Shown in pieces: positions 1 to 14,022 of a stretch of 64,000 nucleotides of DNA. The DNA is from Bryum argenteum (taxonomy: Eukaryota > Streptophyta > Bryopsida > Bryales > Bryaceae). Below the pieces are notes generated by a model. It did no database searches and was not told where the DNA came from. It was given only the letters and a program-made list of their open reading frames with translations. Position 1 is the stretch's first letter. Each line of letters begins with the position of its first letter. Location of the stretch: positions 32,049,864 to 32,113,863 of the forward strand of contig CM073322.1 of assembly GCA_037043015.1 (NCBI GenBank), given 5' to 3'. Both the position numbers and the translations under genes were made by a program.

Positions 1-345
1 CGCTACGTGGTTGAAGAGACCACCCCTCGTGGAGTTCCCCCGTCGGCGGACCTACATTGCAGAGAACACACACACACACACGCCGCGGCCGTGGAGTCAC
101 ACGCAGAAGAGAACCCCGCAAGGCACTATAACCCTGGGACTCGGGCCGACAGAGTACTACCCCAAGCTCACCGGATTGACTTACCCGGCCTAATCACTGA
201 GTGATTACAGCCTCTAGTCAACGACCTACCCGGACCCGAGGCTAACTGTGATTGAAACCTCGAGCCCCGGTTCTTACCCATCTGCTGACTCATACAGCCC
301 CGTTCCTCACACCTCGGACACCTCCATCACATACCCCGGCTAACA
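1..345 (+). repeat. 5' LTR, right part only
   Basis: Bases 1-345 match 9107-9451 without a mismatch or indel, including a (CA)7 run. It ends in CCCCGGCTAACA; the full LTR, judged from the 3' copy, is 778 bp, so the missing left part is about 433 bp. Confidence 0.95.
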
Positions 346-363
346 TTTTGGCGACCATGCTGG
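346..363 (+). other. Probable tRNA primer-binding site
   Basis: Directly after the LTR end comes TTTTGGCGACCATGCTGG. The TGG start just past the LTR and the position are typical of a minus-strand primer site, and the form resembles the TTGGCGCC... sites of Tat/Athila elements. I did not assign the tRNA. A run of more than 20 A residues follows at about 384-407 in the leader. Confidence 0.6.
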
Positions 364-461
364 GGATGGAGTGCTGAGGTAGAAAAAAAAAAAAAAAAAA
401 AAAAAAAGGAAAAAGAGAGAGAAGAAGAGATCTCCGGCTACGAGCCTGTGGGGAGGAAAAG

Positions 462-1367
462 ATGCCCCCAAGAAGAAATGCCACGGAAAGAGCTGTGGAA
501 AATGTAGTTGCAGATATGGAAGAGATCGTGCAACAAGAAGACGAGACCAGAGAGCTGCTGCAATGGATGAAGCAACAGATGACGGATCTAGCTGCTCAAA
601 ACGAGGCCACGAATGCCAAACTAGAATTGCTCAGCCTTAAGTACCAGGACATCCAAGGCAATGTAGCCCCCGAGGTTATAGCTTCCACGCCCAGGAGTGT
701 GGAAGAACCAGCCGAAGCAGCAAGGTCTGCAACCATACCCAGGGGGAACAATGCCGCGGCCAGTGCAAGCACGTCGGGAATGCCCCCACCGGCACCAGTA
801 GCGTTATCCGCAAGGATACTTCCTGTGTCACACAACCCCGGAAGCCTTGACACCCAGGCCAAGTTACCCAAGATACCTTACCCCGTGTTTGACGAGTCTG
901 GGGACCCGGACTGGCACATCCGGAGGTTTAAGGTGATAGCCCGTACGAACGGCATTTTTCATGCCACGGATTTACAAAACATTTTTGGTACCACGCTCCA
1001 AGGGAATCATATTAACTGGTACATTGACTTCGAAACCGAACACAACAATGCCAGTTGGGAAGATATGGAGCGTAGTTTTTTGCATAAGTTCAGAAAACTC
1101 AAAACAAGTTCGGAAGTCCTCCGAGCGTTGGGATCGATTACACAATCCACGAATGAGCCGGTGGATAAGTTTTATGATAGATTTAAACAGTTGGCCGACA
1201 AACTTAGCCAATGGCCCGAGGAGGAATATATGTGTGAATGGTTCAAAAAAGGCTTACTTCCATGGATCCAGCAGGGTATTGTTATCCGTGGAGTCAAAAC
1301 ACTACCAGACATCCTCTCCGCGGCAAATGACATCAGCCGGGAACTTATGGCGCTGAAACAAACGTAG
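462..1367 (+). CDS. gag: Retrotransposon Gag (capsid part)
   Basis: 301 codons. The C-terminal half has the retrotransposon gag pattern: a region with ...DPDWHIRRFKVIARTNGI..., then WEDMERSFLHKF, then a TNEPVDKFYDRFKQLADKL stretch, which in this family builds the capsid shell. The N-terminal third is acidic and probably coiled coil (residues 10-55). The zinc knuckles that normally end Gag are not in this ORF: they lie just after its TAG stop, in the same frame, at the start of the pol ORF. So the stop at 1365-1367 separates capsid from nucleocapsid plus Pol. It is either a nonsense mutation or a recoded stop. The ATG at 462 is the first in a purine-rich leader and starts the open frame. Confidence 0.9.
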   Translation: MPPRRNATERAVENVVADMEEIVQQEDETRELLQWMKQQMTDLAAQNEATNAKLELLSLKYQDIQGNVAPEVIASTPRSVEEPAEAARSATIPRGNNAAASASTSGMPPPAPVALSARILPVSHNPGSLDTQAKLPKIPYPVFDESGDPDWHIRRFKVIARTNGIFHATDLQNIFGTTLQGNHINWYIDFETEHNNASWEDMERSFLHKFRKLKTSSEVLRALGSITQSTNEPVDKFYDRFKQLADKLSQWPEEEYMCEWFKKGLLPWIQQGIVIRGVKTLPDILSAANDISRELMALKQT

Positions 1368-1409
1368 ACACCCATACTACCCTTACCCTCGGCACGACAA
1401 GATGCTCGG

Positions 1410-4400
1410 ATGGCACCTTCGTTATGTGAGACATGCGGAAAGACACACCACGGGAGATGTTGGTACTCTGCCAATGCCACCCCGCCCCAGGATCACAGGC
1501 GACCTAGGAACACCACGGCCTCGGTATACCCCGAGGAGATTAACGTGGATGCATTCCAACCTGGGCGTTCTGACGCGTGCTGGGAATGCGGAGGTTTGGA
1601 CCATCGGCGAAGCCAGTGTCCCATATTCAAGCAGAAGTGGACCCAAGGTCGAAACAATGGCTCCCCGGGGCATCCAAACACTAATCCCACGGCCCATAGG
1701 AGAGGAGGGGTAACATTGACTGAAGTCCACGGGCCAGAAACAAATGTGTCCATGATTTCAGCCGCCGCGGTGACTACCCGGTCAAAAGCAATTCCCTCCA
1801 ACCACGTGATAGAGCACCGGAAGCCATTTCCGGAACATCACTGGGAACGACTACATAACATGAGGACGAATCTCCAGAAGGACTTGGAAACCGCACCTAC
1901 AGATCAAAGGTGTGCCACGGACCCCACCCTGCAGCAAATTCTAGACACTACCAACGTCACCATCACCCTGGCAAAGCTAGTACAAATCAGCCCTGAGTTA
2001 CAACAATACCTACAAAGGGCTGTGATAGCGGAAACCAAACCCGACCCCACGTTCGTGGAAGTCAACGCCGCCACGATAGACCCCGACGCGGCAGTAATCC
2101 ACGTGCAATTAGGAGGACAGACACTGACCAACGTCCTCGTCGATGGGGGGTCCGGCGTGAATGTAATGAGCAACCACGTTCGACAGGAACTAGGACTACC
2201 ACAACCCCGGAGTGCCCGGTTTATTTTACGCATGGCTAACGACGCCCCCGTCACACCCCTGGAAATTCTCCCCATGGTGGGGATTACGATACACGGGGTA
2301 TCACCACCAGCGACGTTCGTGATAATCGATATGCCTCAAAACAGCGGTTTTCCGGTAATCTTAGGAAGACCTTGGTTACGAGACATGCAGGCAATACATG
2401 ACTGGACCAAAAATCAGATTTACATTCAACGCCACGGGAGAACCGTGGTTATACCCGTGGACAGTTGCCTAACTCGTGCTAAGATCAGTCAGATCCGGAC
2501 CTCCACAGGGACCGATTGGCCAAAAGAATTTACAAACGAACAGGAAGCTCTAGTACTCCACGTTCACCCCAGCTTAATACCCGTGGCCGAAATTCATTTA
2601 GCTAGCTTAGTACAAGAAGAGAAACTAGATATTCCCGAACACTTCACTCAAGAGATAGCCGGGGACGTGGTGGTAAATGCTGTCCCTGCAAAGGAAGCAT
2701 TGTGTCATGAGACCATCACGGGATGGACGCACGGGGCCAAGGAAAGGGTGCAGCTGGTAAAACTCGGAACAACAGAGGAGCCCAAATACATCAAAATCAA
2801 CACAGATGCGCCCCCAGCCATCAAGCAAGCGGCCATCGCCCTGTTCCACGAGTACAAAGACATATTCGCCTGGAACCACGAGGACCTGAAGGGTATTCCC
2901 AATGCCCTGGCCAAACATACCATTGACCTCGTCCCCGGAGCAACCCCACTGCAGCAAAGGCGATACAGAATGAACCCAAACTACGCCGCTCGGGTCAAAG
3001 CGGAATTGGACAAACTTCTCCACGCCAAGTTCATTTCCCCCGTGGATGCAGCACCTTGGCTCTCTCCCATGGTTATTATTCCCAAGAAAAACGGCACGTT
3101 GCGTATCTGCGTGGATTTCCGAAAACTCAACGCAGCAACAAAAAAGGATCACTATCCATTACCGTACATGGAGGAGATCATCGATGAGGTTGCCGGACAT
3201 GAGATGTACTCGTTCCTCGATTGCTTCTCGGGATATTACCAAGTAGCCATGGCCGAGCAGGATAAAGGAAAGACAGCTTTTTCCACGGAATGGGGACCTT
3301 ATCAATTCGAGCGAATGCCATTTGGGGCCAAAAACGCACCCATGACATTCCAACGCGTCATGGAATTAATTTTCAGACCGTACCTCAAACAATTCTTCAG
3401 AATTTACCTGGACGATGGAACCGTCTACGGCAAAATGAAGGACCACGTCTCACACCTCAGGCAAATTTTCCACGCCTGCAGAACCAACGGGGTGAGTCTC
3501 AACGCTGACAAATGCATGTTCCTGTACTTCGCCGGGGTCATCTTGGGGTACATTGTTTGCAAGCACGGCAAACTTCCCGACCCCGAGAAAATCAAGGATA
3601 TCTTGGACATGACACCACCACTGAATCAAAAGGGTGTACAACGGCTCCTGGGCTTAGCACAGTTCAACCGAATCTACATCGAAAAATTGGCACACATCAC
3701 CGCCCCGATCACCGCACTGAACCATGCCAAGTATACGTACCCCCGGGACTGGACGCCGGAGGCCCAAGCAGCCCTGGAGAAGATAAAAAATGCCTATTCA
3801 AACGCACCTATTCTCATTGCTCCAGACTGGTCTAAGCCGTTCCACATCCACACAGATACATCCAACATTGCCGTGAGGGCGATGTTAGCACAGAACATAA
3901 ATGGCAAGCACGATCAACCCGTGGCATACGCTAGCCGACTACTCAACCAAGCCGAGCGAAATTACTCCACCACAGAACGTGAGGCCCTAGCAATGATTTA
4001 CGCTGTTAAAAAATTTAGACATTACCTCTTCGGGAAGAAATTTAGTTTCATGGTCGATCACCACAGCTTGTCCTACCTCGTTAATCAAACCTTGGTCACG
4101 GGGAGGGTAGCCCGGTGGATCATGATACTACTCGAATACGACTTCGAAGTGGTATACGTCCCTGGGAAGAGGCACATCATGGCCGACTACCTGTCCAGGG
4201 ATACCAACACTGCCGCGGAAGGAATCGATGATTCTTTCAACGAGGCATATGTGCAGGCTACCCAAATAGCCACGGACCCCGAGGAACACAAGGCAGATTG
4301 GAGGGCCGATATCATCCGATACCTCACCACGGGCCACACCCCCGTGGGCATAACAGGGACCCGCAAGATTAGCTTCGTGCAAACAACACTGCCCTACACC

Positions 4401-5264
4401 ATGGTCCAAGCAAGGTTGTACAAACGAGGACCGGATCAGGAAATCCGGTTGTGCGTACCCGCTAACCAGCAGCAGCAGATTATAGCGCACCTCCACGATG
4501 GACCCGCGGGAGGCCACCAGGGCCCCAACACCACGGTAAAAAAGATCCTCTCCGCGAAGTACTGGTGGCCGACGTTGCACAAGGACGTCATTGCCTATGT
4601 CAAGAACTGCCACGCCTGCCAAATATCCACGACAAACTTTCAGCACCAAGGTCGAGTACCCATGAAGGCCATACCACCATTGGGACCATTTCAACGGTGG
4701 GGATTAGACTTCGTGGGTCCGATAAAACCAGCCACACGCCAAGGGTACAAGTATATCCTCGTGGCCACGGACTATACCACGAAATGGGTCGAGGCCAAAC
4801 CGTTGCGCACTAACACCGCAGTCGTCACGGCCTCGTTTATCTACGAAAATATAATCACGAGGTTTGGATGCCCCCTGGAAATAGTATCAGATCAGGGTAC
4901 CCATTTTGTGAACACCGTCATCCAAGACCTCCTCGACAACCATGTTATCAAGCATCGAACCAGCACTGTCTATTATCCCCAGGGAAATGGACAAGCCGAA
5001 TCAACGAACAAAACATTGATCAATATGCTGAAGAGATTCATCCATGCTAACCAAACAGATTGGGATGATTGCCTACCAGCTGCACTCTGGGCGTACCGTG
5101 TAGCCATCAAAACCGCCACAAACGCTAGCCCGTTTGAAATGGTTTATGGCACCCAACCTTTATTACCCACGGAACATTGTACCGACATTCCAAACATTAC
5201 AGCCAAGGGATTACACCCCTCACAGGGTGCTCGCAGCCCGCATCGGAGATCTTCACCACCTTGA
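1410..5264 (+). CDS. pol: Retrotransposon nucleocapsid-Pol polyprotein, 3' frame broken
   Basis: 1284 codons in the same frame as gag, separated only by the TAG at 1365; the first ATG is at 1410 but the frame is open from 1368. Domains in order: two zinc-knuckle motifs ([13 protein letters not shown], irregular; [16 protein letters not shown]2CX4HX4C); aspartic protease with [11 protein letters not shown]; reverse transcriptase with [12 protein letters not shown] (YLDD active site, about residues 665-680); RNase H beginning [13 protein letters not shown]; integrase with the HHCC zinc domain ([11 protein letters not shown]...CHACQ) and the D,D-35-E core ([27 protein letters not shown]). The product would reverse-transcribe and insert the element. 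The frame changes near 5200-5210, next to a GGG run, just upstream of the integrase C-terminal domain, so this ORF ends prematurely at 5264. Confidence 0.93.
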
Positions 5265-5757
5265 GGAACTTCGAGCATTGGCAACATCGCACATCCTACA
5301 CAAGCAAACCTTGGCCACCCGGCACTTCCAAGGCACACAGCCCCCACGATTGTTTCAGAAAGGTGACCAAGTACTCTGGTGCCCACGCGATCCTAAACTC
5401 AAAAGATCTAAATTTGAGTCTATATGGCACGGCCCCTACACAGTACAATTAGCACTGCCTAACAATATCGTCCTCCTTGTCAACAACACAAATTATGACC
5501 CCCACGCTACGATAGTCAACGCTGCAAAACTAAAACGATACCATACTATAACACCACAACTCACGACAGCCCTTAGTTTACAAGACATACACACAACATT
5601 GGCAGCCGAGGCACGTGACGGGGACGAACACACCGGGATCCAGCAAACGCAAGAACGCCCTCCACAGACACCATGGACACACAATCCGAGGGAACGAATT
5701 ACCGCGGCATCAGGGGATACCAGGCAGGAACCCGGGGGGACGAACACGAGCAAATAA
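5206..5757 (+). pseudogene. Integrase C-terminal domain in the +1 frame
   Basis: From about 5206 the coding signal moves to the next frame. It begins with a basic stretch ending [11 protein letters not shown], then has FQKGDQVLWC and WHGPYTVQLAL, the usual beta-rich C-terminal domain of gypsy integrases that binds DNA, followed by a low-complexity tail to 5757. No chromodomain is seen. The shift relative to pol equals one extra base near a GGG run. Whether this is a mutation, a sequencing indel or programmed frameshifting cannot be told from one copy. Confidence 0.75.
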
Positions 5758-6021
5758 ACACAGACACCAAAAAACAGGAGCTTAGGGAAGCCTCGGCAGG
5801 AAACCACGTGGACAATCCATGGACCCTAGCCGCACAAGGAGCCTCCCCCGCCTCGGCCATGATAATGCCCATACCATGCGCATACATCAGCCACATCCAT
5901 GTTACCCATGGCAAAAACCCAAGGGGTCACAGTCTCGGGGAGTGGCCAATCAATGCCATAATTACCCCCCTGGATCCGCCCGAGGCATCATCACCAAATT
6001 CGACCCCCGAGGCATCATCAC

Positions 6022-6238
6022 TCTATCTTTTAAAAGGAGCCGCCGCCACGGCCAACTCCATCATTCCCACTCCCCTCTCCCAGCAGTCAGTGAGAGCTTA
6101 CATACCGTGGGGATTCCCGGGGCTCGACCTCATTCTCTCACCCCCTTCGTCGCAGCTCAAGTTTTTTTGCTTCTCGGCGATCCCACACACCTCGCCCATT
6201 TGTACCTCTGTTTTTTCCGGTGTCCAAACCCCGTTGCA
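6022..6238 (+). promoter_or_regulatory. Possible internal promoter or splice acceptor for the accessory ORF
   Basis: Upstream of the accessory ATG at 6252 there is a TATA-like CTATCTTTTAAAAGG at about 6022-6036 and a pyrimidine-rich stretch ending in CCCCGTTGCAG at 6238, which looks like a splice acceptor. Downstream ORFs of gypsy elements are commonly expressed from spliced or subgenomic RNA, so either would make sense. This is inference from short motifs only. Confidence 0.3.
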
Positions 6239-6251
6239 GGTCGCAGCAGCT

Positions 6252-6929
6252 ATGGCGCGCGGTGCTCCCCGGGATCGCAAACCCTTGTACATCCCCAGGC
6301 AGATTGCGGAGTGGAAGAAGTACCCGGACATGGAGTGGCTCACACAGGCGGGGTTGTTGCGCTACGCCAATCACCTCCGCGAGAACATTGACCTCAGTCG
6401 CTGCCGCGCGTTCATTACCTCGATGCGGGAAAGGCAGTTGGAGGATCCCAGCAACAGGGACGTGGCCGGGGTCGTGGAAGGGGTCCTCGTACAATACTCC
6501 CCGAGGTACCTTTACCAATTTTTTGGATGGGACGGCACAGGGGTGACAAGCTGGTCGCAGCACAACAGCAGTCTGCCGCAACCGGACACCACGGTTTACA
6601 CCCACGGGTACCCGGCGCAGGGGGATCGCAAGTTCGATGTCTATGAGATTACACGCAACAACCCCAACATGCCCGACCCATGGTTTGGCAGGATCCGGGG
6701 TATACTCAGTCAAGTATTCTTTAGAAACGATTGCAACACAGTACACCCGAACCAACTCGCACTGTGTGTCATGGCGGGCCGGGGAGAGAAGATCAACTGG
6801 GGCAAGCTCGTGGATGGCAACGCGGTGAGCCAGATCCAGGGGCACGTACACAGCGATGCATACGAAAGCCCCCATAGCCCCGTTTCTCACACAATTCATC
6901 GGCCACTTTTTAGACTATCACAGGGCTAA
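6252..6929 (+). CDS. Accessory ORF, N-terminal part (putative plant transposon protein domain)
   Basis: I place the start at ATG 6252 (MARGAPRDRKPLYIPRQ), because the open sequence upstream to 5673 is low-complexity and non-conserved in look. Features: a YANHLRENIDLSRC...FITSMRERQLED region, then YSPRYLYQFFGW and, near the end, NQLALCVMAGRGEKINWGKL. This pattern resembles the 'putative plant transposon protein' domain found in extra ORFs of plant Tat/Athila-like elements and in many plant genomes; its biochemical role is unknown. Coding signal leaves this frame at about 6865-6880, near CCCCC and AAA runs, and continues one frame over, so the tail printed to 6929 is probably out of frame. Confidence 0.6.
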   Translation: MARGAPRDRKPLYIPRQIAEWKKYPDMEWLTQAGLLRYANHLRENIDLSRCRAFITSMRERQLEDPSNRDVAGVVEGVLVQYSPRYLYQFFGWDGTGVTSWSQHNSSLPQPDTTVYTHGYPAQGDRKFDVYEITRNNPNMPDPWFGRIRGILSQVFFRNDCNTVHPNQLALCVMAGRGEKINWGKLVDGNAVSQIQGHVHSDAYESPHSPVSHTIHRPLFRLSQG

Positions 6930-8571
6930 TCACCATCCGTGGACCATGGGCACCTTCTTAGAAGTACAGCAGGAGCTAGCGGAGGCCGCAAAACCAAGCA
7001 CCACGCCACCCCACAGAGGCAAGCGGCCACGCACCGAGGAGGCCGGGGCCGCTGAAGGGGGTCCCATGGAGGTGGCTAGCACCTCCACAGCCACACAGTT
7101 CGGTCCTCGCACCACGGCATTCGAAGCACAGAAGCGAACCATGGAGACCTGCATGGAAGACATCCTCAATTTTCTCCACGTCACAGAACAACAGCAGCAG
7201 ACCGCCACGGCCAAATACAGGGAATGGGAAACTCGACACAAGCGACACACCGCCCAGCTTGTGCAGACCACCCAGGCCGCGGCACACAAAACCTTGGAGG
7301 CGTATAAGCTGGAGGTCCAGCTTCGCACGGAGCAGCTGCAGGGGCAGGTAACAACCCTGCAAAATTAGCTCAACACGAGGGATTTGGAATTACAGGCCGC
7401 CACGGAACGATCCAAGTCTTTCGAGGACCAGAGTGCCCGGGATCGCGAAAGGATTGAGCGGCTTGACCGTCAAACCACCGAACTCGTGGCGCAGTGTAAA
7501 GCACTCACCGAGGAACTGGCTCTCAAGTCCACGGCCCCGACACCCAGCACCTTGGACGTGGACGGGATACAACGACAGCGCCAGGAGGTGGACAATGCCC
7601 GCGAGAATTTTGAGGCAAACAAAATGGCGTGGACGAACCATGCGGCCCGGGTGATAGCCACCGCAGCTTACCAACTGCTGCGAGCCACACCCCCCACGTT
7701 CGAAGAACCCCCGGCCTCGTTTCTCGATCAATGCACGAGCGATGCACTCATCACCCTGGATCTGGAGAGCTCCGACAACAACTGGGGCAGCCAAGGGGAG
7801 CCCTTCCTCGGGGAGGATGAGGAGGAGACACACATGCAGGACGAGCCGGAGTTGACACAACTCCGAAAACACGCAGACACAGAGGATTACGACGCGCAGG
7901 AGGAGGACACCCGCGCACAAACCGAGGACAGGGACATGGACGCCGACTCCGGGGAAGGAATGTACCAATTTTCAACGCAAATAGGGGAGGAGAGAGTAGA
8001 CATACCCGAGGGGTTTACAGACCACGAGCAAACACCGCACCAATCACCACGACCGCATGCCACGATAAGCTCTCCGCAGTACCACCTCCCCGTTCTGTCC
8101 CCTCCGGCACACTACGAGTCCCCGGTCAGACAAAACGCGGATGGCACTTACCCCTGGCCAAAGCGGGCCGAATCCCCCATGACACCCTCAAATCCTCTAC
8201 CGGTGTTTTCCCCGTTGCGCACACGGCCTTCCCCTCAGTCCTTGGCTCGACACAGGCAAGTCATCCTCCAACAGGAGGAACACGAGGGGTGGAATATCGA
8301 GGACGCGGATGAGGACGGAGATGAAGCCTCGGATTCAATGCACTTCGTATTGAAGTACTTCCACGAACACCCCGATTTAGCGGCACATTACGCAGACCCC
8401 GAGGCACAAGGGCGACAATGTCCGGCCTGTAACCGGACGTTAGGAGGCACGGTGTTTGATGTGTACACCCACGCACTCAATTTCCGTGGCAACCACGTCC
8501 TGATGCATCGAGCCGTGGCCGAGGCACTTCGTCGAATTCACAATGGGGAAGAACCCCCTCGCAGTGGTTGA
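6856..8571 (+). CDS. Accessory ORF, C-terminal part with coiled coil and CCHH-like zinc finger
   Basis: One frame holds APIAPFLTQFIGHFL (continuing the upstream domain), a basic KRPRTEE segment, and long coiled-coil helices (about 7130-7620, e.g. AYKLEVQLRTEQLQGQ). A TAG at 7366-7368 sits in the middle of the coiled coil, and the same frame stays open from 7369 to 8571. Next come an acidic low-complexity region (about 7740-8340) and a C-terminal CPACNRTLGGTVFDVYTHA...H module at about 8419-8545. That finger resembles the zf-XS finger of SGS3-family RNA-silencing proteins, though the XS domain itself is absent. The helix-rich, acidic, zinc-finger layout is unlike a viral envelope protein: I see no signal peptide or membrane span. 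Function unknown. Confidence 0.6.
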
Positions 8572-8673
8572 CAACTTCCCCGGGAGCAAGCCAGACCGAA
8601 CCGGAGGCCCGCCCCCTCGCGCCATTGAATCAGCAATTCGGGGACGAATTGCACTCTGCGAAAGAGTGCAAAA

Positions 8674-9451
8674 TGTTACCCGCCTCGGCACCGCGGGTAT
8701 CATTACCGAAGACCAGCACCCCGGGAAGACCAGGACTTAAACAGCCACGGGGCTCGAGGCCGAGGCAGTGACCAGAGGACCACGAGGATCGAGAACAGGG
8801 GCGCAGGGAGTTAAGGCCGAAGAACAGCGCAAGAATTAGGTTTTATTATAAATAGAGGAGGATTTACACAAAAGGTAGCCCTCTGTAGTGCACGAATGTC
8901 GTGATAGCCACAACGCATGCTTGCGATTTCTGTACCATTGGGCGTTCACAATTCAATGCAAACAGGACTCAGTCCATTTCCTCTACCTCTAACGTTGCGC
9001 TCACTCCTCTCCCCTCCTTCCCTATTTCTAAACTCCTGCATTCTAAGTCTTGCAATCGCCTGTGGCACCGTGGAAATCCGTGTTGGGACAGTTGTGTCTC
9101 AACACACGCTACGTGGTTGAAGAGACCACCCCTCGTGGAGTTCCCCCGTCGGCGGACCTACATTGCAGAGAACACACACACACACACGCCGCGGCCGTGG
9201 AGTCACACGCAGAAGAGAACCCCGCAAGGCACTATAACCCTGGGACTCGGGCCGACAGAGTACTACCCCAAGCTCACCGGATTGACTTACCCGGCCTAAT
9301 CACTGAGTGATTACAGCCTCTAGTCAACGACCTACCCGGACCCGAGGCTAACTGTGATTGAAACCTCGAGCCCCGGTTCTTACCCATCTGCTGACTCATA
9401 CAGCCCCGTTCCTCACACCTCGGACACCTCCATCACATACCCCGGCTAACA
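8674..9451 (+). repeat. 3' LTR, complete (778 bp)
   Basis: Bounded by TGTTA...TAACA inverted ends, with longer imperfect symmetry (TGTTACCCGCCTCGG against TGTTAGCCGGGG read from the other end). A purine-rich stretch with GAAAGAGTGCAAAA lies immediately upstream (8660-8673) and can serve as polypurine tract. Its right 345 bp equal 1-345. The sequence just outside begins GTAGT, which is the candidate target duplication to look for left of the 5' LTR. Confidence 0.9.
8847..8854 (+). promoter_or_regulatory. LTR TATA box
   Basis: TATAAATA within the 3' LTR, about 170 bp from its left edge, followed by AGAGGAGG. This is the expected RNA polymerase II promoter of the element; the equivalent in the 5' LTR is outside the window. 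Confidence 0.7.
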
Positions 9452-9682
9452 GTAGTAGAGTCCCGTCGTTTAGTAGTGCCATTGTCCTCGGTTCCCGAAA
9501 CTCCACCTCCTGCCTCACTTGTCCGTCACACTTCACATGTTGACGTTGATCAGGTTGCACGAGTGGTTAACATGCGAATTAAAAAGAATGAGGCCAAAGC
9601 TAGACGTATCGAAGCGAAAGCATTAGCTAGACTTGCACCCAGACGTTCTCCGCGACTTGCCGCAAAATCAAATTTATCTTAG
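9452..9682 (+). pseudogene. Coding fragment cut by the retrotransposon, basic C-terminus
   Basis: The frame is open from the LTR boundary to a TAG stop-free run ending at 9682. Its end is strongly basic: NMRIKKNEAKARRIEAKALA then RLAPRRSPRLAAKS, a composition typical of a nuclear-localisation or nucleic-acid-binding tail. Because it is open right up to the LTR edge, the element may have landed inside an exon. It may be a 5' exon of the ParB/methyltransferase relic that follows on the same strand, but no splice link can be proven. Confidence 0.4.
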
Positions 9683-9821
9683 TTGTATCTTCACATTATA
9701 TGATATGTTTATCATATCATACATTATAAAATGATTACGTAGTATTAATCATATCTCATTGGACTTTTGATTATTCTTATTCATTTTGTGTTGTGTTGAA
9801 CTTGGTTTTCTGGACTGTCAG

Positions 9822-12684
9822 ATGAGCATATCTCAAGTTCGATTCGTTCACGATGAAGATGCCAACTCGCCTCATCTTAATCCTCCACCAACTCGATCTT
9901 CCAATCGGGGTGAACTCCTTCTTCGTAGTGTCAGAGATGTTGGAGACATGTCCAATGGAGTTCCGGAGGAGAGTCCATCGGAAGCTGACCGTCATCCCGA
10001 GCCCAATCGAGATCAAGATGGACAAGACTCTCATTCTGTAGATGAAGACACTCCTTTGTCTGGAAGTGTCAACGTTAGGATACTGCACATGCCTACTCAT
10101 CTGCAGAACAAAGATCCGGATTGAAGTGCAAACGAGATAAGAATGATCGACAAAAGCAATTCAATTGCGATCATTAACAGGTTCCGGTACAAACCTGTTA
10201 AAAAGTCTCGCATGCTTATTCCATTGTGTCGTCTCGTTTGTTATCCTAAGGTTAGACCTATCTTGGAACAAGACGTCAGAAAATTGGAGAATGAGTTTAA
10301 CCCCTAAAGATCCTTGATACAAAATTGTTAAAATCATCAAAAAGAACCTTCTTCTACTCCAGGCCCAAAGAAATGGAATCTAAGCATTAATTAGAAGATC
10401 CAACCGTAGGATCTTGAAGCTAACTTGACTCTTTACTCTAGTAACAAATTTGAACCGTTAATTTTTCTCCAATTTTGAGATTATAATGGTTAAAGTTGGC
10501 TGAACTTTTTCCCTGCGGAAATCCCAAAAAGCCATTTCGGCTTTCTTGGATCTTTAGGGGTTAACAAAGGCTATAGCGAAGGCGACTGGGTCATGTATGT
10601 CTCTCCTTTTGATAAAAAAGGAAGAGAGAGAATGGTTGACGTCGAAGATGCGGTGTCGACAAATCCTCTATGGAAAGCTGCCAATGAAGAGTTTGAGAAG
10701 ACGCTGCAGTCCAATTTGGATCTTCAACACCTCAGTGACAAGTACTTTTACGTCTACGAAGGTGACCATCGTGTTATGGCGTGGATGCGTCATATCGAGA
10801 GGTACCATAAGATGGAACCTTCCTGGTACATCTCCGTGGACTGTACCGTACTCGATGCTCGAGGAGAGAGCAAGCTCCTCCTTGACGCTATGAACGTCAT
10901 AAATTGATGAGTAATCGTGAACTTTTCTGAATCAATTTTAATTGTATCTTCTTAACTCAGACTTCAGATGGACCGGCAAACAATGCAGTTCGACGCGGTG
11001 CAAGATTGACTCAACTTTCTACAGGTGGACTTACGAATGTTGAGTCCCCTCCTCAATCATTCACCGTTGACCACAACTCCTTGCAGTCTCCACGTCGTCT
11101 CAGCCAGCCTATATTCGCCAAACGCCCTCTTCCGAAACCCCAACACATTGGTAGCAGCTCGTCGTCAAAAATATCTGTCAGCCTGCCTATATATCTCGAG
11201 AAGGGGAATATTAGAGATTTGGTTCATCAGTCGTTGAAGACTGGAAACTGGGATTCGCAAATCCTCGATATGGTCGAGCACATCAAGAAGGTATTATTTC
11301 ATACATTTGTCAGTTTTAATCTCCTTAATTACATTTTGTACTCGTAAATCTATAAGCCACTATCTAATTTTTGACTTGTCTCTCAGATTGGAAAAGACCA
11401 AAAGTACCCGTGTTAGGCGATGGAGTATAATCCCAAGCATCATGGGATTGATCTCATTTTTGCAGACGCTCCCGAGAACTTGTCCCTACCGGGTGTGTCT
11501 CCAACAGAAGTTCCATCTTGGAACCGGCGTGACAAAAACTACTTTGAAAGCCTCTTCTTCTTTGCCGCGTATCATTTGACAGACGTTGGAGCCATTCTTC
11601 TGATGCATCCAAAATGTCGTAGAATCGAGCGTACTCTCGATTCTGAGTCGCATACATATAGTTTTTGTCTTGTTCGAGACTGGTGGTGATATAATCCCCT
11701 CCCTATGGCCTCTACCGTACCTAAACCGAAAGAGGTACGGAGCAGATTCTAGTTTCCAATTTCACAATTCATGATTATTGCCTTCTATGCTTGTATGTTA
11801 ACGCATCTATACTTGTGTTTTGCAGACTCACTGCTTCCATATCAAAGTTTATGTTTGTAAAGATTACATGTCGAAATTCCAAACTTGGCAAGTCGCACAC
11901 GCATACGCGGGTGTGGCAATCGTACCTAATGAGGAAGACCACCTCTGTAACTCTGCAGACAAAAAGACATTGCGTTATCGTCCGGATGGTACGCCATGGC
12001 GAGGCTCACGAGAGAAGGACCCCTCCTTCATCCAATGTTTGTCAATTGTCTCACGGACGACGGGGGTATAGTCTTCGACTGGAGCGCAAGTACAGGTAAT
12101 GTTTCCGTAAACTCTACATTAGAATTTGTTTATACATTTCGCATTTCTAACGTATGCTTTTGAATTTTTAGGTGCATCTGTGATTGCTTGCGCGCGCTCC
12201 AACCGACACCTCATCGCTATGGAGTCTGAGGAAGAAATCTTTGATGATGTACTAGCAGATTACAAGAATAGTCCTCCCGGTGATGAAGAAAGTGGAGAAT
12301 CGGTCCCTCCCGCAGATTATGACTCTGACGAACCGGTCGTGAAGAAGCCACGAAAGCTCATTGGTGCATAATACCATCTTGTATTCTCTTTCTCGATTTT
12401 AAAATCCGCACTTACAAATCGATAGTATTGACTTTATTTGTAATTTTAGGATCGCAAGTTTGAAAGAGCGATTGACTCGCAACGCTCATCTCTACAATAG
12501 CCCTCCATCAACATTCACCCTACCATCCTACGCTGAGCGTCTTGCTCAAGAGTTTGTTCAAGCTTCATCTCCCATTCTGTCTGACACTCCACGTCCACGT
12601 TATAGCAATAGTGAGCTTAAGTTTCTAGACTTTGAGGCTGATGAGTGTGATCAGCATTTTAATGGTACTACACCTTCAGTCTAG
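9822..12684 (+). pseudogene. ParB-like domain fused to beta-class DNA methyltransferase, degenerate
   Basis: Exon-like blocks: 9822-10297 plus 10565-10907 (one exon split by a MITE), 10961-11290, 11387-11734, 11826-12095, 12172-12371, 12451-12684; intron edges are GT/AG and most phases agree. The first block ends with a ParB/sulfiredoxin-fold pattern, RLVCYPKVRPILEQDVRKLE before the MITE and YFYVYEGDHRVMAWMRHIE after it (GxHR motif). The third block has GIDLIFADAPENL, a DPPY-like catalytic motif IV. The fourth and fifth have DWSASTG + ASVIACARSNRHLIAMESEE, the FxGxG-type cofactor motif. Motif IV before motif I is the beta-class order of N4-cytosine/N6-adenine methyltransferases. Disabling changes: in-frame stops at 10122, 11414 and 11687, and a one-base shift near 12030. 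In bacteria and phages ParB-methylase fusions are common; in a spliced plant locus this is unusual. The 3' acidic exon and 12451 exon are weakly tied. Confidence 0.6.
10301..10560 (+). mobile_element. MITE A, TTAA-flanked, piggyBac-like
   Basis: 260 bp with perfect inverted ends CCCCTAAAGATCC / GGATCTTTAGGGG, flanked by TTAA at 10297-10300 and 10561-10564. CCC-type termini with a TTAA target duplication are the hallmark of piggyBac transposons. It has no coding capacity. It interrupts the ParB-like exon: the coding frame before and after it is continuous if the element and one TTAA copy are discounted. Confidence 0.8.
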
Positions 12685-12756
12685 TGTGTGATTTGTTTTC
12701 TGATAGATACTGGATATGGTAGCGCCATACATTTGTAGTTTACCATGATTTATTAC

Positions 12757-12760
<4 letters not shown>

Positions 12761-12842
<82 letters not shown>
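12761..12842. repeat. (TA)n(TG)n microsatellite
   Basis: About 65 bp of alternating TA followed by about 16 bp of TG. The short ORF across it is an artefact of the repeat. Confidence 0.95.
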
Positions 12843-13917
12843 TTTTTTTAATATATACGGTATTATACTTTTACTTATCATGATTATCTTTTATAGCCTA
12901 ACCTACACTAAGTGCTTCAAGTATTACTCTAAGTATAAGAATACTATGAAATTGAAGCCATGCTTGCCTCTTACTGTGACGTCAGCTCTAATTTTGATAT
13001 AACTCGTTCAACTCCAATTTCAATGCATCGGTGTATCTATTCTCGCGATCCCATAACCGGAAGCAAAATGTGTAAAAAACTACACATCTTAATCAGAGGA
13101 AAATTGGCTTCGATTTTATAAGGTGAGAAGCGATGAAGTCAGCCCTAATTCCTTAACGAGAATCTAAAAACTTTTGAGTAATTATTATTTGAGGAGTTAT
13201 GGATTGGAGCCAACAGTACTTTCGCACGAATATAGCATTCAACTTCACGGATTTGAGGTACTCATTTCGATCAAACTATTCCCAAATATATTTCATCACC
13301 CTTAACTCAATGGTCATAGGGTCACTATCTCAAGTACAATGAGTGGTAATAGGGTCTTAATCTTTCATGAAAAAAAAAAAATCTGCCAATCACCGCTCAC
13401 CGCTATCCGCTCACACCCGTGCATTCCCCATAATTGGCTTGCAATGGTAAAACATGCTTAATGTATGGAAAAATTGAATGTGATGTTTTCTTTTTTATTT
13501 ATTATTTAATTTGTAATTTTTAGAAATAAACTCTTTTTGATGGTTCCAAAAAATCTTGTGAGGTTGCAAATATCATGGTTCAGTCAAATGTTATAAGAGT
13601 TGTCACTTATAATGATTTTTAGTTTAGTTCACTACCGTATGTGTTAGAGTGTAAGTGGGGTGGGGTGTCCCCCTGGGCAATCCATTAGATTATCAGTTAA
13701 CTTTATAAAATATTGAGTTTGTATGTACCTCCACTTATTGCAAGTCTCATAGATCATTGCGTACACCTCAAATGCTTGTAAGATGAATTGATGAAAAATA
13801 GGTAGATGAGTTTGGTAACATGATTTTAAATATGAGGATTTTTTACGACTATGTATAAAGTTGCAATGCTTGGTGGATGTTTGCTGCTCCAAATGTTATT
13901 CACGTGCCTAAATTTCA

Positions 13918-14022
13918 TACTCCCTCTACCGATTGAAATTGTCTTGTGAGTATAGTGAAATCTACCTCGAGAAGAGATTTTGAGAGAACCTGTAGTGTAG
14001 AGTCAATAGGATAGAGGGAGTG
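13918..14022. mobile_element. Stowaway-like MITE, diverged
   Basis: About 105 bp with ends TACTCCCTCTACCGATT and AGAGGGAG, sharing the CTCCCTC terminus and internal TTTGAGAGAACCT-type sequence with the perfect palindrome at 31510. The arms have diverged and the right TA is now TG. Confidence 0.6.

Follow-up and report, generated by a model that had tools for sequence, protein, structure and literature searches.

We analyzed a 64,000-bp stretch of the Bryum argenteum genome (contig CM073322.1, positions 32,049,864 to 32,113,863; hereafter the window) and confirmed that its positions 9822-12684 hold a broken copy of an intron-bearing gene with ParB/sulfiredoxin (Srx)-type and beta-class DNA-methyltransferase-like domains. 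The three motifs on which the initial annotation relied were all found in place: an EGDHR box at 10758-10772, ADAPEN in exon 7, and DWSASTG at 12077-12095, resuming at 12172 past an intron. The proposed spliced structure also holds, as introns 11291-11386, 11735-11825 and 12096-12171, with their GT/AG edges, match an open relative, L031, exon by exon. Because relatives of the gene recur across the genome and in Ceratodon, this observation stands far above chance. The copy is dead as annotated, with three stops (Table 1) and one frameshift, which we located in exon 8; of the two insertions originally claimed, one was confirmed inside the gene (260 bp). Further damage came to light. A deletion of ~1.7 kb has taken out exons 2-5 together with the first part of exon 6, the splice donor after the ParB exon is lost, the acceptor before the last exon is displaced by one base relative to L031, and a long terminal repeat (LTR) retrotransposon (1-9451) severs from the window the left half of the mobile element described below.

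The gene family is very large in this genome. When the window's own assembly (259 Mb, 25 contigs) was searched with the ParB exon, 342 candidates led to 40 scored matches (84-100% identity, window included), 34 of them on contig C1. With the methyltransferase exon, a first look yielded 1223 candidates, of which 150 were scored; 274 matches resulted, spread over contigs C1 to C11, and many of these, among the matches listed, contain no internal stops. The predicted model of L031 (C1:7999300-8006300) consists of 10 exons with GT donors, which together form a single 1173-aa frame that starts with ATG and stops at TAG; exon 5 as written has an acceptor ending in AA, and the frame is preserved by a CTTGAG acceptor six bases further along. 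In this gene model, the ~1170-aa protein opens with an N-terminal ParB/Srx domain, continues through a conserved middle region and a low-complexity linker, and closes with a C-terminal beta-class methyltransferase-like domain. The only relatives found that bear a species name were three hypothetical proteins of the moss Ceratodon purpureus, which cover 67-68% of the query at 51-54% identity; a profile of the ParB exon added 58 relatives. Open relatives thus exist, both as the L031 model and as the Ceratodon proteins, and the presence of both domains in one spliced eukaryotic gene is supported by the L031 gene model, the domain matches and a fold model of the ParB part. Two caveats attach to this joining of the domains: it rests on a predicted model, and all three Ceratodon proteins begin in the middle region and are annotated without the ParB exon.

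The gene is under strong purifying selection. The ratio of nonsynonymous to synonymous substitution rates (dN/dS) relative to L031 ranged from 0.08 to 0.21 in eight comparisons (L027, 0.08; L030, 0.11; L029, 0.12; L023, 0.13; L028, 0.15, exons 5-10 only; L010, 0.17; window, 0.20; L032, 0.21), and changes concentrate at third codon positions (for example, 67/49/341 in L027). Stops were counted in L029 (2), L032 (1), L010 (9), L023 (3) and the aligned part of the window copy (2), and every compared copy has alignment gaps not divisible by three; intactness is therefore claimed for L031 alone.

The initial annotation had suggested a self-spreading element, and inverted termini and target duplications were indeed found. 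A common right end, ..CATTCCCC, lies at the same place in the window and in six of the ten loci with at least 1300 fetched bases beyond exon 10; it was not in the fetched stretch of the other four (L015, L016, L024 and L026). This end has 92 exact copies in the genome, compared to none for the reversed control. The left end, GGACGTAGCTACGGTGTGAGCGG, identified by comparing L013 and L033, is its imperfect inverted partner, with 23 copies that differ from the pattern by at most one mismatch; a search of the fetched loci for the right end in inverted form found none. The imperfect inverted termini span ~50 bp, with GGTGTGAGCGGAGAGCGGTGAGCGGTGAGC common to both in the best pairs. Terminal inverted repeats (TIRs) of Mutator elements are often long, and some families lack them. 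Among seven left/right pairs, three are flanked by exact target duplications (9, 9 and 10 bp), two by duplications with one mismatch (9 and 10 bp) and two by none. The exact 9-bp duplication of the window's element, of a length within the 8-11 bp described for Mutator-like elements (PMC6446971), has its twin 24 kb before the window (C2:32025854-32025862); the element extends from C2:32025863 to 32063292 (37.4 kb including nested insertions). The interval from the left end to the ParB gene contains a divergent minus-strand gene that appears to resemble a Mutator-type transposase: D, D, C..H and N..ES..N residues and a SWIM-like CxC..CxH finger can be placed by eye. Its Pfam scores are weak (E = 0.19 for SWIM; E = 0.18 for Transposase_mut, seen in one of 51 relatives scanned), and the gene has 93 relatives but no clear Pfam family. 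Since the window copy has inverted termini, an exact 9-bp duplication and an adjoining divergent transposase-like gene, we take the ParB-methyltransferase gene to be transposon cargo.

Tandem repeats are frequent in the region between the transposase-like and ParB genes, and they share a compensated 24-bp palindrome, CAGACTT(G/T)CGTCGACG(C/A)AAGTCTG, an observation that goes beyond the initial annotation. Its degenerate core occurs in 18 of 24 oriented loci, whereas mononucleotide shuffles yield 0.0-0.2 per locus; the left half of the window's element contains the core once. Three further core matches in or beyond the gene (two in L010, one in L016) were left out as sites. The motif also emerged from a free palindrome search of the same region, in 12 of 23 loci compared to 0.0 in shuffles. 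The exact 22-mer has 216 places in the genome (reversed control, 0), and of the 21 clusters into which the first 50 listed places fall, 9 have a listed family feature no more than 6 kb away, compared to a random mean of 0.8. In multi-site loci the sites are mostly 250-490 bp apart, often matching the repeat spacing, and the 100-base stretches before neighbouring sites are at least 80% alike in many loci (compared without gaps), L009, L016 and L021 not being among them. In L031, at 611-672, the palindrome arms extend to 31 bases.

The palindrome is maintained by compensating changes at its free positions. The scan pattern fixed the inner pairs and left positions 8/17 and the outer four pairs free. 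Pair 8/17 is G-C in 10 sites, T-A in 8 and never unpaired (n = 18), while pair 4/21 is A-T in 11, C-G in 3 and unpaired in 4. Pairing is seen in 88.9% of cells, compared to 25-41% in slid controls; three measures were reached by none of 500 shuffles, and two others by 284 and 460 of 500. With the palindrome masked, only 9 of the 153 pairs of surrounding 300-base stretches (18 loci) align. The aligning stretches fall into two groups, L010/L011/L014 and L012/L017/L023/L026, which means that the palindrome has survived the loss of its surroundings about 13 times.

ParB proteins bind palindromes, and a GxxR box is a signature of the ParB/Srx group. The ParB exon matched the PHROG family of ParB-like partition proteins in five of five relatives (best E = 0.0016) and no phage in a direct search. 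The predicted fold of one relative (P0097) matches the common ParB/Srx fold, and a GNHR-type box, GDHR in the window, was found in 24 of 25 scanned sequences, some of them decayed. We propose that the window copy is, on balance, probably a dead cargo gene of a large Mutator-like TIR transposon whose ParB-type protein recognises the element's own palindromes and aids its escape from silencing or its transposition. The protein would bind the palindromes as ParB binds parS, load onto the element's own DNA and thereby mark the element. The methyltransferase-like domain, which retains a SAM-binding end and reads DAPE at motif IV, would work in cis in a non-standard or non-catalytic manner. The outcome could be shielding from host silencing or help in transposition, as VANC provides for VANDAL elements; an accessory self-recognition protein seems to us the most economical reading. 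More tentatively, the whole might amount to a plasmid-like ParB-parS system in a eukaryotic transposon, in which the protein spreads from the arrays, a repurposed non-catalytic methyltransferase domain senses host methylation, each family protects its own copies, and arrays and protein co-diversify.

It is possible, if not what we expect, that the palindromes have nothing to do with the ParB-type protein and instead serve the transposase or a host factor as binding sites, or act as hairpins. The sites lie between divergent genes, a region that may equally house promoters and transposase sites, and compensation suits any dimeric binder or a hairpin; however, the palindromes adjoin a gene for a domain of a palindrome-binding type within the same element. 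An unlikely second alternative has the ParB domain acting as a nickase or nucleotide-dependent clamp that assists the transposase in excision or integration rather than countering silencing. A Bacillus cereus ParB-methylase is reported as DNA-nicking (PMC5512222), but the moss palindromes lie between the genes, away from the termini where strand transfer happens.

The remaining half of the protein bears on a third alternative, that the gene codes for an active N6-adenine or N4-cytosine methyltransferase modifying its own element. PHROG DNA methyltransferases were matched by seven of seven sequences (best E = 8.2e-6). A tblastn search matched 218 phage records (best E = 2e-3 among the matches listed), 16 of the best 20 being named methylases or methyltransferases, and 30 plasmid records. 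Profile alignment (hhalign) with four phage enzymes picked from the tblastn hits gave 95.8% (E = 7e-9), confined to the end with motifs X, I and II. In a profile search of the PDB, dynein light chain ranked best (E = 0.0045), followed by N4-cytosine and DpnA methyltransferases (E = 0.32-0.53); the Tctex dynein matches were discarded as unrelated because they are confined to residues 11-62. Pfam and NCBIfam matches fell below their cut-offs, and the predicted fold of this half (P0001, 3 sequences) had a pLDDT of 28, so no fold is claimed for it. With motif IV placed by eye (GIDLIFADAPENL beside SIDMILCDLPYGT), the motifs follow the beta-class order IV ... X, I with a SAM-binding I/II region, and the IV-to-I spacing is 172 residues compared to 166 in a phage enzyme. 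The domain thus appears related to beta-class enzymes and to retain their SAM-binding end; we do not claim its membership among the active ones.

Active amino-methyltransferases carry [DNS]xP[YFW] at motif IV, with Tyr, Phe or Trp as the fourth residue, and the prokaryotic ParB-methylase fusions typically have a DPPY-type motif. The four phage enzymes have DLPY or DPPY, whereas the moss protein departs from this pattern: motif IV is DAPE, with Glu replacing the aromatic residue, in seven of seven aligned sequences from two mosses. Glu also occupies the fourth position in 17 of the 18 sequences in which the motif was found (25 scanned, with a pattern that itself contained DAPEN and allowed up to six changes), and motif I deviates from G-S-G. 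Ordinary N6A or N4C activity, as suggested initially, is doubtful because motif IV is DAPE for DPPY, and an active self-marking enzyme is accordingly improbable, even though motifs I/II and X remain recognisable and retrotransposon-borne DNMTs are known to methylate DNA (PMC5890265). That DAPE is conserved under strong selection in both mosses points to a new job rather than to decay. The old transfer from bacteria or phages was not borne out either, the phage and plasmid relatives being too distant to place the gene; what stands of the initial interpretation is the pairing of two domains in one spliced gene, the self-spreading element and the open relatives. Finally, the gene might belong to a host moss family, or be of endogenous viral origin, and have been picked up or struck by transposons by chance. 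This reading would fit the very many copies, the ParB and methyltransferase genes known from viruses and the four of ten loci without a right end in the fetched stretch, but is highly improbable given target duplications in five of seven pairs, the shared placement of the right end in the other six loci and the window, and two scans of viral_contigs, neither of which found a relative.

Features of the window copy and of its element are collected in Table 1. Exons 2-5 were searched in window positions 9001-14000 and not found. At the deletion point, 12 of the 18 fetched loci have 1.63-1.74 kb, two have more, three have no downstream block and one, L016 (C1:33392700-33402600), lacks the stretch. 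The deletion is thus not private to the window, and since L016 shares it, a cargo gene with this deletion seems to have spread. Alignments to relatives break at 10292-10301 and restart at 10558-10563, bracketing the 260-bp insertion, which is piggyBac-like judged by its target.

Table 1. Features of the dead ParB-methyltransferase gene and its element in the window.
Feature	Position	Strand	Remarks
Last-exon remnant of small upstream open reading frame of the same element, basic tail RRSPRLAAK..stop	9452..9682	+	aligns to relatives from 9452
Exon 1 of ParB-methyltransferase gene, ParB/Srx domain	9822..10906	+	counterpart of L031 exon 1
Exon 1 defects	stop 10122-10124; insertion 10301-10560; donor 10907-10908	+	insertion splits exon; donor AT for GT
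Nonautonomous insertion, 260 bp, CCCCTAAAGATCC inverted ends	10301..10560	.	read directly
TTAA duplication around 260-bp insertion	10297-10300 and 10561-10564		
Deletion point, ~1.7 kb gone (exons 2-5, start of exon 6)	10947..10955	.	comparison with 18 loci
Exon 6 remnant, linker and start of methyltransferase-like domain	10955..11290	+	alignment to relatives
Exon 7, motif IV ADAPEN 11462-11479	11387..11734	+	stops 11414-11416, 11687-11689
Exon 8, with motif X-like KDPSFIQ and the opening part of motif I (DWSASTG)	11826..12095	+	one frameshift
Exon 9, remainder of motif I, motif II, acidic tail	12172..12363	+	
Exon 10, conserved C-terminal tail	12459..12684	+	acceptor one base off compared to L031
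Right terminus, ends ..CCGCTCACACCCGTGCATTCCCC	13380..13429	+	common to window and 6 of 10 loci reaching at least 1300 bases past exon 10
9-bp target site duplication ATAATTGGC	13430..13438	+	exact twin at left end

A small third open reading frame (ORF) lies upstream of the ParB gene (dN/dS 0.30-0.37 in three pairs); in the window, the LTR retrotransposon cuts off the part before 9452. L017 (715-1128) and C2:32031031-32031435 have plus-strand ORFs that resemble each other, with acidic parts and a KKKKK stretch, upstream of the tandem repeats; they are perhaps the first exon of this third gene, with the tandem repeats in its intron. The retrotransposon, inserted inside the transposon, is Gypsy-type as judged by eye from an ORF at 1368-5264, and its insertion is very young because its LTRs are identical across the 345 visible bases (1-345 and 9107-9451). 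A long (TA)n run that gives way to (TG)n occupies 12762-12842, in the 3′ part of the element. Contig C1 (44.1 Mb) holds 48 of the 92 exact right ends with 17% of genome bases; it seems poor in kinesin genes, with 10 matches in the listed part of 166 kinesin matches. The idea of a chromosome-specific gene was set aside for this excess, as accumulation in a gene-poor chromosome may explain it instead; C1 may be a sex chromosome or another gene-poor chromosome.

If the proposed reading is right, a ParB-type protein joins the few proteins with which eukaryotic transposons oppose or accompany the epigenetic control of their hosts (VANC, TET/JBP, SET, DNMT). Protein and palindrome form a candidate protein-site pair that is directly testable, with hundreds of natural sites in one genome, and the compensated palindromes predict the binding site to the base. 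Should the methyltransferase-like domain prove non-catalytic, an enzyme fold would have been retained by selection for another job.

The moss element shares with ParB-parS systems a ParB/Srx fold and clustered palindromes on the same DNA, but partition is not implied for it and its palindrome is 24 bp long, compared to the 16 bp of bacterial parS. No description of a moss ParB-methyltransferase element was found among the literature titles and abstract openings listed, a body from which subscription literature is mostly absent. The ParB-methylase fusions of bacteria, phages and conjugative elements likewise combine ParB/Srx and amino-methyltransferase domains in one mobile-element protein, but are described as intronless (PMC5512222). 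Retrotransposon-borne cytosine methyltransferases of dinoflagellates and charophytes also place a methyltransferase gene on many mobile elements; these enzymes, however, are of the C5 class, host-derived and active, and the abstract mentions no ParB domain (PMC5890265). Fungal TET/JBP dioxygenase transposons are cut-and-paste elements with an acquired DNA-modification-type gene, probably directed against silencing, but their enzymes oxidise 5mC, in other hosts, and the abstract lists no Mutator or MuDR among the transposon lineages; MuDR families with VANC or SET genes are named in the same paper (PMC12730594). Closest in plan are the VANDAL elements of Arabidopsis, Mutator-type elements that carry an extra gene and copy-variable, noncoding tandem repeats, which in VANDAL contain the binding motif of VANC (PMC5735166). 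VANC has DUF1985/DUF287 (PMC5735166), neither of which is among the Pfam matches listed for the scanned pieces of the moss protein with its ParB and methyltransferase-like domains; its motif (YAGTATTAC type) is non-palindromic, unlike that of the moss; and its activity has been demonstrated, whereas the role of the moss protein is inferred. The moss system would thus work like VANC in plan, though unrelated to it.
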